A stretch of 64,000 bases of DNA from positions 2,666,001-2,730,000 of the forward strand of contig NC_018691.1 of the NCBI RefSeq assembly GCF_000300005.1, read 5' to 3'. Shown one piece after another: positions 45,007-48,825 of the stretch. Made by a program: the position numbers and the translations under genes. The DNA comes from Alloalcanivorax dieselolei B5 (lineage in GTDB: Bacteria; Pseudomonadota; Gammaproteobacteria; Pseudomonadales; Alcanivoracaceae). The notes beneath the pieces were generated by a model, which worked only from the letters and a program-made list of their open reading frames with translations, had not been told where the DNA came from and ran no database searches. The stretch's first letter is position 1, and each line of letters starts with the position of its first letter.

Positions 45007-45765
45007 TCAGCGTGCTCCCAGGATCACGTCCTTGCCGCGCAGTTGCTCCAGCAACTCAACGGCGAAACCATGCAGCGCACTCTGGTCGGCAAAGTTCAAC
45101 TCTTCCGCCAGTCTTGTCAACACAGCCTCGCCCTGCTCTTCAGGACAGGCGGCCATCAATTGCAGCATGCGGGCGGTGGCCGGGTTCAATTCGGTGAAGC
45201 GGACTCTATCGCCCCGATCCCGGTGAATCAGCAGCCACACCAGCTCCGCCAGGGGCTGATCAGGACGATAGTCCGGACCGATCCGGTGAACCGGGAAGCG
45301 GTAACCCTGCAACACATGCAGGGGATTGAGCACCGGCACCCCGGCGAGCAGATCGCCGTCGGGGTCATAGCCCTGTTGGGGAATCTCCTCGGTGGCGGTG
45401 TCCAGGACCACCTCCATCCACTCGTAATGGGCCAGTTCCGCCAGATAGGGAGGGTCCTGGGGATCGGGCTGATACTCTCCGGCCAGAAAAGCAACGAACT
45501 CGCCGGGAATTTCCAGAAAGTAGGGTGAGTGGCTGTGGTGAGAATGAAAAAAAGCGCGCACCAGGGCCCGCCAGCGGGCTTCCGGCAAGACACCATGCAG
45601 GACCGGAAAGCCCTGGCTCAGGATGCCCTGCACATTATTGAAAAAGAGGTCGCGGTATACCGCAAGCCGGCGATCCTCCAACCCTTCCGGCGCCGCGTGC
45701 CGGTCCGGGTCGCGCAGATGGGCGGCGAAACGCCGCTGTACGGCAATAAAGTGCGGCTCGCTCAT
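45007..45765 (-). CDS. hvfC: HvfC/BufC-type RiPP maturation partner (DUF2063)
   Basis: 252 aa. The N-terminal DUF2063 domain has RLAVYRDLFFNNVQGILSQGFPVLHGVL and SPYFLEIPGEFVAFL; a C-terminal half follows (YRFPVHRIGPDYRPDQP, LVWLLIHRDRGDRVRFTELN). In known systems it binds the precursor and the DUF692 enzyme and is required for cysteine modification. The ATG has AGGAG 6 nt upstream and overlaps the hvfB stop (ATGA), so the two are made together. Confidence 0.88.
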   Translation of the reverse strand: MSEPHFIAVQRRFAAHLRDPDRHAAPEGLEDRRLAVYRDLFFNNVQGILSQGFPVLHGVLPEARWRALVRAFFHSHHSHSPYFLEIPGEFVAFLAGEYQPDPQDPPYLAELAHYEWMEVVLDTATEEIPQQGYDPDGDLLAGVPVLNPLHVLQGYRFPVHRIGPDYRPDQPLAELVWLLIHRDRGDRVRFTELNPATARMLQLMAACPEEQGEAVLTRLAEELNFADQSALHGFAVELLEQLRGKDVILGAR

Positions 45766-46628
45766 GCGGAGCTCCTGCCCGACTTCCGGGCCTGACCTTC
45801 CGTCTGCCGTTGGGTAGCGCCGATGCGGCTCAACTCCGCGAACAGGGTGTCGTTGTCGGGGAAGTTGAAATCTCGCTCCAACAACGTTGGCAGCACCCCG
45901 AAGCGCTGATAAGTGTGTTCCAGCAATGACCACACCGGCTCGATCACGGCGCTGCCGTGGGTATCCACCTTGAGATCCTCGGCCTCGTCGTAGTGGCCGG
46001 CGATATGCACATAGCAGATCCGCTCGCCGGGCAGGCCGTCAATGAAGCGGTACGGGTCGTAACCGTGGTTGATGCCGTTCACATAGGCGTTGTTGACGTC
46101 CAGCAGCAGACCGCAATCGGCCTCCTCAAGCACCGCGCGAATGAACTCCAGCTCGGTCATTTCGGCCGGACCGCCGGGCGGCGTGTAATAACTGACGTGT
46201 TCAATGCCGATCGGACGTTCAAGAAACGCCTGCACCTGCCGGATACGATCGGCGACGTAACGCACCGCCTCGCCGGTAAACGGTATCGGCATCAGATCAT
46301 AAAGATGGCCACCGTCGCTGCAGTAGCTCAAATGTTCGGTATAACAGCGGATTTGATGCTCATCGAGAAACCGTTTGACCGCGGCCAGCAGTTCGAAATC
46401 CAGCGGATGGGGCCCACCCAGGGACAGGCTCAGGCCGTGGCAGACGAACGGGAAGCGTTCGGTGAAACGACGGAATTCCCGGCCCAGGCGACCGCCCATG
46501 GGAATCCAGTTTTCCGGCGCCACCTCCATGAACTGGAACGGCACGGTCTCGCATTGGGAAAGCGGGCCCATCAGGGCCCGCCGTAATCCCAGGCCGATCC
46601 CGTGGACCGGGGCAAGGGCTGTCATCAT
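45762..46628 (-). CDS. hvfB: HvfB/BufB-type multinuclear iron-dependent RiPP maturase (DUF692, MNIO)
   Basis: 288 aa TIM-barrel DUF692 protein. Metal-ligand regions of the family are present: PFVCHGLSLSLGG, YTEHLSYCSDGG, LLLDVNNAYVNGINHGYDP, ERICYVHIAGHYDEAEDLKVDTHGSAV and LLERDFNFPD. Relatives (MbnB, HvfB, BufB) use di- or tri-iron and O2 to convert cysteine into oxazolone/thioamide or thiooxazole. It is 27 bp after hvfA and overlaps hvfC. Two adjacent ATGs (46628, 46625) are possible. Confidence 0.92.
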   Translation of the reverse strand: MMTALAPVHGIGLGLRRALMGPLSQCETVPFQFMEVAPENWIPMGGRLGREFRRFTERFPFVCHGLSLSLGGPHPLDFELLAAVKRFLDEHQIRCYTEHLSYCSDGGHLYDLMPIPFTGEAVRYVADRIRQVQAFLERPIGIEHVSYYTPPGGPAEMTELEFIRAVLEEADCGLLLDVNNAYVNGINHGYDPYRFIDGLPGERICYVHIAGHYDEAEDLKVDTHGSAVIEPVWSLLEHTYQRFGVLPTLLERDFNFPDNDTLFAELSRIGATQRQTEGQARKSGRSSA

Positions 46629-46655
46629 GGCACTCTTATATGAGGGGATTGGGGA

Positions 46656-46943
46656 TCAGGCGGCTCCGCCGCACTTCCCTTCGCCGCATTTGCCTTCGGC
46701 GCCTTTCTCGCCTTTGTCTCCCTTGTCAGCACCACAGCTGCCCTCACCTTTCTTGTCGCCGCCACAACGGCCTTCGGCGCCTTTTTCGCCGTGCTTGTCG
46801 GCCAGCTGATAGCCCGCTCCGAGATCGGAGGCGGCGAACGGATTTTCAACCGCCTGGGCGGTCACCGGCAGGGACATCGCCGATGCGACAAAAGCGGCGC
46901 CAACGGTGGCCGCCAGAGGACTGAGTTTATTGGCTTTAGCCAT
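46656..46943 (-). CDS. hvfA: HvfA/bufferin-type cysteine-rich RiPP precursor
   Basis: 95 aa. Signal peptide with cleavage after PVTAQA (about residue 31), short linker, then a Gly/Lys/Glu-rich region with all four cysteines in E-G-x-C-G pentapeptides: EGRCG (57-61), EGSCG (67-71), EGKCG (83-87), EGKCG (88-92). This is the HvfA hallmark; these motifs are modified by HvfB/HvfC to copper-binding heterocycles. AGGAG precedes the ATG. First gene of the leftward hvfABC operon; no DoxX-type hvfD is present. Confidence 0.93.
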   Translation of the reverse strand: MAKANKLSPLAATVGAAFVASAMSLPVTAQAVENPFAASDLGAGYQLADKHGEKGAEGRCGGDKKGEGSCGADKGDKGEKGAEGKCGEGKCGGAA

Positions 46944-47016
46944 GTCATCTTCTCCTGATTCGCTGATGGGGTCGAAACACCACCGAGACCCGGAATGGCC
47001 CGGTTCATGATTTCGA

Positions 47017-47026
47017 CACTATAGTG
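47017..47026 (-). promoter_or_regulatory. Palindromic element in the hvfA promoter
   Basis: CACTATAGTG is a perfect 10-bp palindrome containing a -10-like TATAGT, 75 nt before hvfA. Upstream on the same strand TTTACT lies 15 nt away and TGTAAC slightly further, the latter resembling an ECF-sigma -35, but no matching ECF -10 is at normal spacing. Regulation by copper or an ECF factor is inference. Confidence 0.4.
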
Positions 47027-47160
47027 ATGCACGACGGGAGTAAACGTTACATGAAGATATGATATCCAGGAGCAAACCAGGGCCGGCCACCTTGGGGAAA
47101 GCGCGCCTGCATCGGGTACTGGCACCGAGAAGCCGGCCGGCGACGAAACCCGGTGCTCCG

Positions 47161-47772
47161 TCAAAGTTCGGATTTCAGTCTGTCGAAAGCGTCCCGCAGA
47201 AAGCTGGCCGCCGACTTTCTCTGCCCGTTCTGCTCCCTCCACGCCTGCAGCGCGAGTCTCATTGCTCCGATGGAAACCATTGCCACCATGCGCAGTGCCG
47301 CCCGGCGCTCGGGTTGCCGCCAGACTTCGCACAGCGTATCGAAAAGCACTTGTTCCTGATCCGCGTAATAGGCTTGTTTACGCGTGAGAAGCGCCTCGCT
47401 TGAGCGCATCAGATTGTCGACGGCCGTCATCTGCTCAGTGGTATAACGCTCAATGTGCTTCACCATCACATCGCGGACAGCATCAAGCGGCGGCACATCG
47501 GGGGATGTTCTTAGCAGATCGGCATACAGGCTGGCGGAATCGGCGTCACGCCAGAACAAGATGATGTCATCCTTCGCTTTGAAGTACGAAAAAAAGGTAC
47601 GGCGTGAGATGCCGGCTTCCGCCGCGATAGCGTCCAGCGTCGTGCCCTCGTAACCATTGGCGAGGAACAGGCGTTGCGCAGCTTCGGCGATGCGCTGACG
47701 GGTTTCGCGGCGTTTGCGTTCCCGCGGGCTCTCCGTGGGCGCGGGTTTCACGGCAGGAGTATTTGCTGACAT
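47161..47772 (-). CDS. TetR-family regulator
   Basis: 203 aa. HTH: RKRRETRQRIAEAAQRLFLANGYEGTTLDAIAAEAGISRRTFFSYFKAKDDIIL. The C-terminal domain is variable, ending SAASFLRDAFDRLKSEL. The ATG at 47772 is chosen as family homology begins shortly after; the codon at 47790 is less likely. Divergent from an SDR gene with tandem palindromes between them, so probably represses that gene and itself. Confidence 0.9.
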   Translation of the reverse strand: MSANTPAVKPAPTESPRERKRRETRQRIAEAAQRLFLANGYEGTTLDAIAAEAGISRRTFFSYFKAKDDIILFWRDADSASLYADLLRTSPDVPPLDAVRDVMVKHIERYTTEQMTAVDNLMRSSEALLTRKQAYYADQEQVLFDTLCEVWRQPERRAALRMVAMVSIGAMRLALQAWREQNGQRKSAASFLRDAFDRLKSEL

Positions 47773-47792
47773 TTCGATGACCTGTTGCAAAA

Positions 47793-47827
47793 ATGCACCA
47801 AGTGCATTATAAATTGCACCGAGTGCA
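47793..47827. promoter_or_regulatory. Tandem TetR-type operator
   Basis: ATGCAC-CAA-GTGCAT (47793-47807) and TGCAC-CGA-GTGCA (47815-47827) are near-identical palindromes centred 21 bp apart, two helical turns, with another half-site ATGCAC at 47835. They fill the TetR/SDR intergenic region. Confidence 0.8.
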
Positions 47828-47877
47828 CAAATTCATGCACTCAGTTTATCTTTCCCACTCTCAGCCAGGCAAGCGCC

Positions 47878-48825
47878 ATGACCCATTGGACAGTCTCCGA
47901 CATTCCCTCTCAACGCGGCCGCACGGCGGTCGTCACTGGAACAGGCGGCCTGGGATTCCAGGATGCGCTGGCACTGGCCCGTGCCGGCGCCAACGTCATC
48001 ATAGCAGGCCGAAACCCCTCGAAAGGGTGCGCGGCCGTGGATCAGATTCGGCAAAGCGTTCCCGGCGCGAGCGTGCTTTTCCAGGCACTGGATCTCGCCA
48101 GTCTCGACTCCATCGAGGCCTTCACCGACGAACTGCGAAGCTCACGCGACAGTCTGGAGCTGCTGATCAATAACGCGGGGGTAATGATGCCACCGAAACG
48201 ACAGCAAACCGAGGATGGGTTCGAATTGCAATTCGGCACTAACTATCTCGGGCACTTTGCCTTGACCGCCCGACTTCTGCCGTTGCTGTGCAAAGGCAAC
48301 AAGCCGCGTGTCGTCAGCCTCTCAAGCGTCGCTGCCCGCAGCGGCACGATCAGCTTCGAGGATCTGCAAGCGCAGCGGAACTACAAGCCAATGCCCGTTT
48401 ACAGCCAATCGAAACTGGCTTGCCTGATGTTCGCTCTTGAATTGCAACGCCGTAGCGATGCCGCCGGCTGGGGTATCCAGAGCGTCGCCGCCCATCCCGG
48501 TATTTCGCGCACCGAACTGCTGCCCAATGGCACCGGCGCATGGAGCGCTCCGGCTCTGGCTCGTCGTTTCCTGTGGTTCCTGTTCCAGCCGTCGGCACAG
48601 GGGGCATTGCCGACGCTCTTTGCCGCGACATCGCCACAGGCTCAGGGCGGCGTCTATTACGGCCCGGACAAGCTTGGTGAAATCCGCGGCTATCCCACTG
48701 TCGCCACAGTCCCTCCGCAAGCACTGGATATCAGCGCCGCGGAAAGGCTATGGAACGAGTCGGAACGGCAGACCGGAGTCACTTTTCCCATTATTGAAGA
48801 AGCGCGGGGAGCCGATAACCTCTGA
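47878..48825 (+). CDS. Short-chain dehydrogenase/reductase (retinol-dehydrogenase-like)
   Basis: 315 aa. Cofactor motif VVTGTGGLGFQDALALARAGANVIIAGRN, NNAGVM structural motif, catalytic Ser in VSLSSVAARSG and YSQSK active site. Length and the PGISRTEL segment fit the WWOX/retinol dehydrogenase-like SDRs. The ATG at 47878 is used; in-frame codons upstream run through the operator. Likely controlled by the divergent TetR. Substrate unknown. Confidence 0.9.
   Translation: MTHWTVSDIPSQRGRTAVVTGTGGLGFQDALALARAGANVIIAGRNPSKGCAAVDQIRQSVPGASVLFQALDLASLDSIEAFTDELRSSRDSLELLINNAGVMMPPKRQQTEDGFELQFGTNYLGHFALTARLLPLLCKGNKPRVVSLSSVAARSGTISFEDLQAQRNYKPMPVYSQSKLACLMFALELQRRSDAAGWGIQSVAAHPGISRTELLPNGTGAWSAPALARRFLWFLFQPSAQGALPTLFAATSPQAQGGVYYGPDKLGEIRGYPTVATVPPQALDISAAERLWNESERQTGVTFPIIEEARGADNL

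Follow-up and report, generated by a model that had tools for sequence, protein, structure and literature searches.

The systems closest to the locus described here are the captophorins, a class of peptides defined in PMC12668002. For fontiphorin, oxazolin and gonophorin a 5-thiooxazole has been assigned by alkylation-assisted nuclear magnetic resonance (NMR) (PMC12668002), and the earlier oxazolone/thioamide assignment for the HvfA product has since been revised to 5-thiooxazole (PMC12668002, PMC13419390). The cofactor of HvfB is a mixed-valent di-iron centre, and a role of HvfC has also been described (PMC13419390). About 2,000 Buf_EGKCG/oxazolin precursors have been described (PMC12452194), and copper binding has been published for bufferins and EGKCG peptides, some of which help growth under copper stress (PMC12452194, PMC12668002). 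In Haemophilus influenzae hypochlorite induces the genes for the DoxX protein, the precursor, the MNIO enzyme and the DUF2063 protein in the wild type but not in an rpoE2 mutant (PMC7907618). The present analysis concerns an hvfABC locus of Alloalcanivorax dieselolei B5, found in a stretch of 64,000 nucleotides (NC_018691.1, positions 2,666,001 to 2,730,000; "the window"). The biosynthetic locus itself is of an already known kind; new here are the location of hvfD, a site shared by hvfA and hvfD, and a proposed link to an extracytoplasmic function (ECF) sigma factor.

The three genes lie in the order hvfA, hvfB, hvfC. hvfA (46656..46943, minus strand) encodes a 95-aa precursor with an N-terminal export signal (judged by eye), the leader motif NPFAASDLGAGY and a core (46668..46775, minus strand) holding four EGxCG motifs: EGRCG (Cys60), EGSCG (Cys70), EGKCG (Cys86) and EGKCG (Cys91). 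After a gap of 27 bp follows hvfB (45762..46628, minus strand), coding for a DUF692/MNIO iron enzyme, and hvfC (45007..45765, minus strand), coding for a DUF2063 partner protein with a domain of the RRE type, overlaps hvfB by 4 bp. We set the hvfC start at an internal ATG (MSEPHF...), and a longer ORF starting at GTG was set aside in its favour. An earlier sequence-only reading of this DNA had described the same precursor, cysteines, spacing and overlap, and both the coordinates and the profile matches agree with it.

HvfB matches Pfam PF05114 (MbnB_TglH_ChrH; E 5.6e-98), a family with no second match in the genome, which is a single contig of 4.93 Mb, and NCBIfam NF003818 (416.8 bits, cut-off 360); HvfC matches PF09836 (DUF2063; 7.1e-28), PF22106 (NGO1945_C; 8.6e-26) and NF050145 (301.7 bits, cut-off 142). 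Among known structures HvfB aligns with PDB 3bww in two stretches over residues 9-274 (E 1.6e-77) and HvfC with PDB 3dee over residues 9-205 (E 8.5e-8). The precursor gave no Pfam match at E 0.001, and its score with the NCBIfam model NF050137, 19.8 bits, is barely above the cut-off of 19.5, which counts against the assignment. In a six-frame translation of the window no EGxCG motif occurs outside HvfA, and no convincing second precursor came out of a search of the genome, in which the next-best match had E 0.17. The precursor has no DUF2282 match in Pfam and the BufB model gives HvfB 239 bits, below its cut-off of 310 (NCBIfam), which separates the locus from the Buf1 and Buf2 bufferins; the MbnB model TIGR04159 gives 29.6 bits against a cut-off of 325 and the partner is DUF2063/HvfC, which separates it from the methanobactins. 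The top relative in a scan of genome contigs is the locus of Alloalcanivorax balearicus, with an hvfB 96% identical. Judged by its sequence, the locus is an ordinary minimal hvfABC (captophorin/Buf_EGKCG) cluster of an Alloalcanivorax-like genome, and HvfA is very probably a cysteine-modified, ribosomally synthesized and post-translationally modified peptide (RiPP) of the captophorin class.

No DoxX gene lies beside hvfABC at the locus, and the sequence-only reading had called hvfD absent. The first part of that claim stands and the second does not: absence of hvfD is not readable from a local window, and an ortholog is found elsewhere in the genome, detached from hvfABC. Of four DoxX matches in the genome, the hvfD ortholog is C1:862533-863228 (L119:4034-4729), 1.85 Mb from hvfABC. 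Its product is 52-71% identical to 27 of the 29 DoxX proteins of loci which hold hvfB (flanks of at most 5 kb) and 43% identical to the remaining two, and the other three DoxX proteins of the genome reach 27-31% identity across 94-113 aa, and in a tree their long branches lie outside the group; hvfD-like matches below 130 bits and the duplicate locus L002 were left out of this comparison. The orthology, together with a direct search, rules out that hvfD was lost from the genome.

The earlier reading had proposed a search for hvfD elsewhere in relatives, and the direct search found it. Among 33 genomes of the family Alcanivoracaceae with hvfB, 20 carry hvfD with a score of at least 251 bits; it adjoins hvfABC in 8 of them and is detached in the other 12. 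In 11 of these 12 it lies 0.6-3.1 kb from an ECF gene (between match starts), and in the twelfth the two are on different contigs. The search recovers an intact ECF gene in every one of the 20 genomes with hvfD. The other 13 genomes do without hvfD; five of the 13 carry the ECF gene, one (G004) has it broken, and seven have none at E 1e-30, one of which (G026) is only 64% complete. A 205-aa DoxX frame in this last genome was rejected as hvfD, as the direct search finds none there at E 1e-5. In a wider count, a DoxX gene lies within 5 kb of hvfB in 15 of 44 genomes (those with an hvfB match at 51% identity or above, own genome included), and contig ends may hide a few. This count rests on 44 of 56 MNIO rows, 12 paralogs at 31-39% identity being excluded, and on 48 DoxX rows; by eye, the only excluded DoxX rows which adjoin an MNIO gene are those beside the 12 paralogs.

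In the genome of strain B5 (G000) the detached hvfD is the third gene in a row. It is preceded by a gene for an ECF sigma factor (C1:863529-864143), recognized by matches over cut-off to PF04542 (Sigma70_r2) and PF08281 (r4_2), and then by a gene, lying between the sigma gene and hvfD, for a 78-aa anti-sigma factor of the ZAS type (zf-HC2, 31.8 bits, cut-off 22.2). The pattern of the latter, C4-x26-H-x3-C-x2-C, is like that of MseR. The ECF/ZAS class is defined by a sigma factor that has regions 2 and 4 and, after it, a short protein with the pattern Cys-His-x3-Cys-x2-Cys, and the same arrangement of sigma and anti-sigma genes has been reported for MseR (PMC2893595) and HrsE (PMC7907618).

Upstream of hvfA most genomes of the family have the site TGTAAC-N15-GCATC or a one-base variant of it. 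In the window this is TGTAACGTTTACTCCCGTCGTGCATC (47026..47051, minus strand), a predicted promoter for an ECF sigma factor, and the same boxes stand before the detached hvfD. The boxes resemble those of oxidative-stress ECF factors, GTAAC(g,a)-N14-15-(c,t)CG(t,a) for EcfF and tGTAACc-N16-CGAA for group 16 (PMC3420878). The exact site has three matches in the B5 genome and the reversed control none. Two of the three are those upstream of hvfA and hvfD; the third was rejected as a further target, as it lies antisense inside a coding ORF of 517 aa which resembles an AMP ligase (name given by eye). Since chance alone gives about 2.4 exact matches in a genome of this size (11 fixed bases, by arithmetic), the case rests on the positions of the sites: with three sites, the chance that one comes to lie on the right strand and at most 100 bp from hvfD is about 3e-5, again by arithmetic. 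Upstream of detached hvfD the site is found with 0 mismatches in 9 of 12 loci, that of B5 included, and with 1 mismatch in one; these 12 loci include that of G010, a genome without a close hvfB.

In G010 the region L129 (G010:C1:982000-997000) holds a DUF2282-like precursor and a distant MNIO gene (names by eye). Near the ECF gene in L129, and also in L128 (G009), the site also stands before other genes, which in both genomes include a methyltransferase-like ORF (by eye).

The presence of the site follows that of the sigma gene. Of 24 genomes that carry the ECF gene, 23 have the site before hvfA with at most one mismatch, against 0 of 6 without the gene at E 1e-30 (Fisher p 1.2e-5); if the site must be exact, the counts are 11 of 24 against 0 of 6 (p 0.06). 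The test covers 30 of the 33 family genomes with an hvfB-type match, there being no locus for G016, G022 and G026. The sole exception is G004, in which the sigma gene is truncated and runs on into the anti-sigma gene, and here the hvfA site has decayed to 3 mismatches. Controls in which the spacer was slid gave at most one mismatch in 3 of 240 trials. The exact pattern was also counted in 36 family genomes, with 103 matches against 10 for the control.

A number of observations weigh against a common control of hvfABC and hvfD by the ECF factor. The Fisher test counts genomes as independent, but two changes on the HvfB tree account for the seven genomes that lack an intact sigma gene, which leaves two independent events as evidence instead of 30. 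The site was read from the regions upstream of hvfA, and its occurrence there is partly by construction; as calculated above, about two exact matches per genome are expected in any case. The count of 103 against 10 is inflated because many matches fall inside the sigma coding sequence of relatives (for example L124:3592 and L128:1385, at CNxLxxSAS codons), where the string is probably a coding coincidence. Two of the 12 detached hvfD genes (L125, L129) have no site within 300 nt, although in L129 it precedes the ORF immediately before hvfD, and in the seven loci checked with hvfD adjacent to hvfABC no exact site stands before hvfD. Nor is there a site before the sigma gene in the four ECF loci checked (at least 4 mismatches), and autoregulation of the ECF factor is for this reason not supported. 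Five genomes keep the ECF gene and have no hvfD. Among 44 distant loci (from L047-L118) only one, L068, labelled Alcanivorax, has the site with at most one mismatch, and by label L068 at least, and possibly L065, belongs to the family. Finally, a TATAGT hexamer directly downstream of the site could be a sigma-70 -10 box.

The precursor was compared with those of relatives. An ORF with [DE]xxCG motifs lies within 1.5 kb upstream of hvfB in 94 of 110 related loci (own included), and some of the other 16 end at a contig edge. The 82 distinct precursors among the 94 hold 540 such motifs, of which 405 are EGKCG, 69 EGSCG, the second commonest, and 5 EGRCG. They have 3-13 motifs each, usually with distances of 5 and 9-16 residues between cysteines; EGSCG is present in 28 of the 82 and is the sole motif type in L020, and EGRCG is present in five, four of which are the window precursor and its nearest relatives. 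The sequence-only reading had listed the two variant motifs, the uneven spacing and the missing DoxX neighbour as unusual points; EGRCG is indeed uncommon, while the other features are all common. A new subtype based on motifs and spacing was rejected accordingly, the rare EGRCG also fitting the known substrate range. Directly after the export signal, HvfA residues 34-45 show the pattern NPF-x4-L-x2-GY, conserved in 67 of the 82 precursors, and it is possible that this is the element recognized by HvfC/RRE.

The residues described for selectivity and catalysis in FonB (PMC12668002) have counterparts in R16-R17 and D253-F254 of the window HvfB, and its D222 and H224 resemble the HvfB ligands D242/H244 (both mappings by eye). 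At position 3 of the motif FonBC tolerates Arg, Ala and Thr and disfavours some other residues (PMC12668002); modification is therefore to be expected for EGRCG and probably for EGSCG as well. By analogy, a 5-thiooxazole on at least three cysteines of HvfA is to be expected with good confidence.

Some further features lie around hvfA. In the 5' leader a stem-loop (GTCGAAA...TTTCGAC) is predicted at 46971..47017 on the minus strand (minimum free energy -22 kcal/mol, z -1.9). Twelve of the 23 family leaders were folded, and each of the twelve is more stable than its shuffled versions are on average (z -0.4 to -4.4), with sequences that differ by clade; Rfam gave no match to a known RNA in 46500-47400. 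About 100 bp downstream of hvfC, on the same strand, lies a gene for an MlaA lipoprotein (PF04333; 43872-44903, minus strand) with a long acidic stretch of low complexity before the MlaA domain. Upstream of hvfA a gene for a TetR-type regulator is found (47161-47790, minus strand), whose best NCBIfam model is the mycofactocin regulator MftR, far under cut-off (88.7 against 224.9 bits).

Other explanations have been considered for the control and for the chemistry. The locus could be a copper-buffering operon, transcribed by the housekeeping sigma factor under a copper-sensing regulator and holding excess periplasmic Cu(I), the shared site being a coincidence. The published copper binding of bufferins and EGKCG peptides, with the growth benefit of some of them under copper stress, speaks for such an operon, and so does the TATAGT hexamer. 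In a set of 30 genomes, however, the site and the ECF gene occur together, the site also precedes detached hvfD, and for the EGKCG locus of marine Microbulbifer the authors conclude that it is neither expressed nor copper-responsive, with a slight and non-robust growth benefit in Escherichia coli (PMC12538549). On these grounds we find such an operon unlikely. The exported copper-buffering peptide of the sequence-only reading is kept in part: the NCBIfam models, the precursor survey and the PDB matches point to a member of this family which is cysteine-modified, probably exported and metal-binding, whereas buffering in response to copper is not an established property of the EGKCG type. Control of hvfABC by the TetR-type regulator has very little in its favour beyond the position of its gene, co-directional with hvfA and 217 bp upstream. 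That gene is divergent to a gene for a short-chain dehydrogenase/reductase (SDR; 47785-48825, plus strand), its more likely target, and in the close relatives L011 and L012 the similarity upstream of hvfA ends at about the promoter site (by eye), so that the neighbour seems not to be conserved; this control was rejected as highly unlikely.

As for the chemistry, HvfB might make oxazolone/thioamide groups like those of methanobactin, as in the original assignment for HvfA and as the sequence-only reading allowed beside its thiooxazole option. Oxazolin has been revised to 5-thiooxazole and the same group was found in gonophorin and fontiphorin by alkylation-assisted NMR, and HvfB scores 416.8 bits with its own model against 29.6 with that of MbnB; the thiooxazole option therefore stands and the other has become most improbable. 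A further possibility is incomplete processing, in which modification is confined to the two C-terminal EGKCG motifs, the variant motifs serving as spacers or plain thiols. It draws on the rarity of EGRCG and on the finding that, of two shortened substrates, FonBC modified solely the one with two repeats (PMC12668002), as well as on its dislike of some residues at position 3; Ser is not among the position-3 variants named in the available part of PMC12668002, which weighs against a full modification of HvfA. FonBC accepts Arg, Ala and Thr at this position, and EGSCG, with 69 of 540 motifs, stands alone in L020. Incomplete processing is consequently rather doubtful, and modification of at least three cysteines is preferred.

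Gene content, family membership, the orthology of hvfD, the shared site and the joint loss of site and sigma gene are computed results, from which the following mechanism is proposed. The RRE-type domain of HvfC would present the unexported precursor to HvfB, which with its mixed-valent iron cluster and O2 would convert the cysteines of EGxCG to 5-thiooxazoles in the cytoplasm, each at the cost of 4 H, so that the peptide would lose at most 16 H. With all four converted, the calculated monoisotopic mass would go from 9137.39 to 9121.26 Da for the full-length peptide and from 6168.80 to 6152.68 Da for the mature form, taken to start at V32. The modified precursor would be exported by Sec and its signal removed, and in the periplasm the thiol-like groups may bind Cu(I) and other soft metals. 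hvfABC and the detached hvfD, coding for a DoxX membrane protein, would form a split unit transcribed from separate places, both switched on by the ECF sigma factor reading TGTAAC-N15-GCATC. The ZAS-type zinc anti-sigma factor is proposed to keep the sigma factor inactive until thiol-oxidative or metal stress releases it.

A minimal hvfABC captophorin cluster within an ECF-controlled split unit with detached hvfD is, as a whole, probably the best explanation, and control of the hvf operon by the ECF factor is likely from the sequence evidence. The results with H. influenzae rpoE2 and with Microbulbifer make a thiol or oxidative trigger at least as likely as copper. Control by stress seems likelier than a copper-only switch, and we give an even chance to thiol/oxidative stress rather than copper being the main inducer. 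On a wider view, the captophorin pathway of the Alcanivoracaceae might be a split regulon: hvfABC and hvfD would sit apart, linked by an ECF promoter specific to the lineage and by an anti-sigma factor that senses redox state or zinc, and hvfD would move between hvfABC and sigma clusters. The peptide would in that case act primarily in thiol-oxidative stress of the envelope, copper being only a part of this role; we give this reading an even chance. The locus bears on the inducer of EGKCG captophorins and on the reason why they are retained in marine bacteria. With a candidate sigma factor, anti-sigma factor and promoter, and with natural relatives lacking the sigma gene (G002, G003, G021, G030, G032 and G035, no ECF match at E 1e-30), the question of induction becomes directly testable in an oil-degrading marine bacterium. 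A split arrangement with a family-specific promoter was not found among the papers listed in ranked searches of the open-licence PMC literature, which does not show that it is unpublished.

Among the described systems the Buf1 and Buf2 bufferins (PMC12452194) likewise have a RiPP precursor with a signal peptide, an MNIO enzyme, a DUF2063 protein and often a DoxX protein, and Buf1 clusters may hold sigma and anti-sigma genes; they differ in their DUF2282 or 6/12-Cys precursors, and their BufB model stays below cut-off for the window HvfB. The mmrABC system of Microbulbifer (PMC12538549) likewise belongs to a marine gammaproteobacterium and has an EGKCG precursor, with five to eight cysteines, and a copper-chelating product, bulbicupramide; neither detection nor a response to copper was seen under the conditions tried, and sigma and DoxX are unmentioned in the text of that paper. 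The gonophorin operon of Neisseria with SigE/MseR (PMC12668002, PMC2893595) has a DoxX-like gene, MNIO and DUF2063 genes, and an ECF factor with a Cys4-His-x3-Cys-x2-Cys anti-sigma factor, as here, but its six genes form one operon and its -35 and -10 boxes are GTMAGBWTT and CGTCTAAH. In H. influenzae, hvfABC with DoxX, giving oxazolin (PMC13419390, PMC7907618), has the same protein families and an EGKCG precursor with an export signal. Its RpoE2/HrsE pair, an ECF factor with a ZAS-type anti-sigma factor, is encoded away from the operon and needed for induction; the DoxX gene lies inside that operon, and six cysteines are modified. The fonABC locus of Fontimonas thermophila (PMC12668002) is likewise a minimal cluster of EGKCG precursor, MNIO and DUF2063-RRE genes with no DoxX in the cluster. 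Fontiphorin has seven modified sites against the four motifs of the window HvfA, and no regulator is described for fonABC in the available part of that paper, whereas the genome of strain B5 has hvfD and an ECF sigma factor gene elsewhere.

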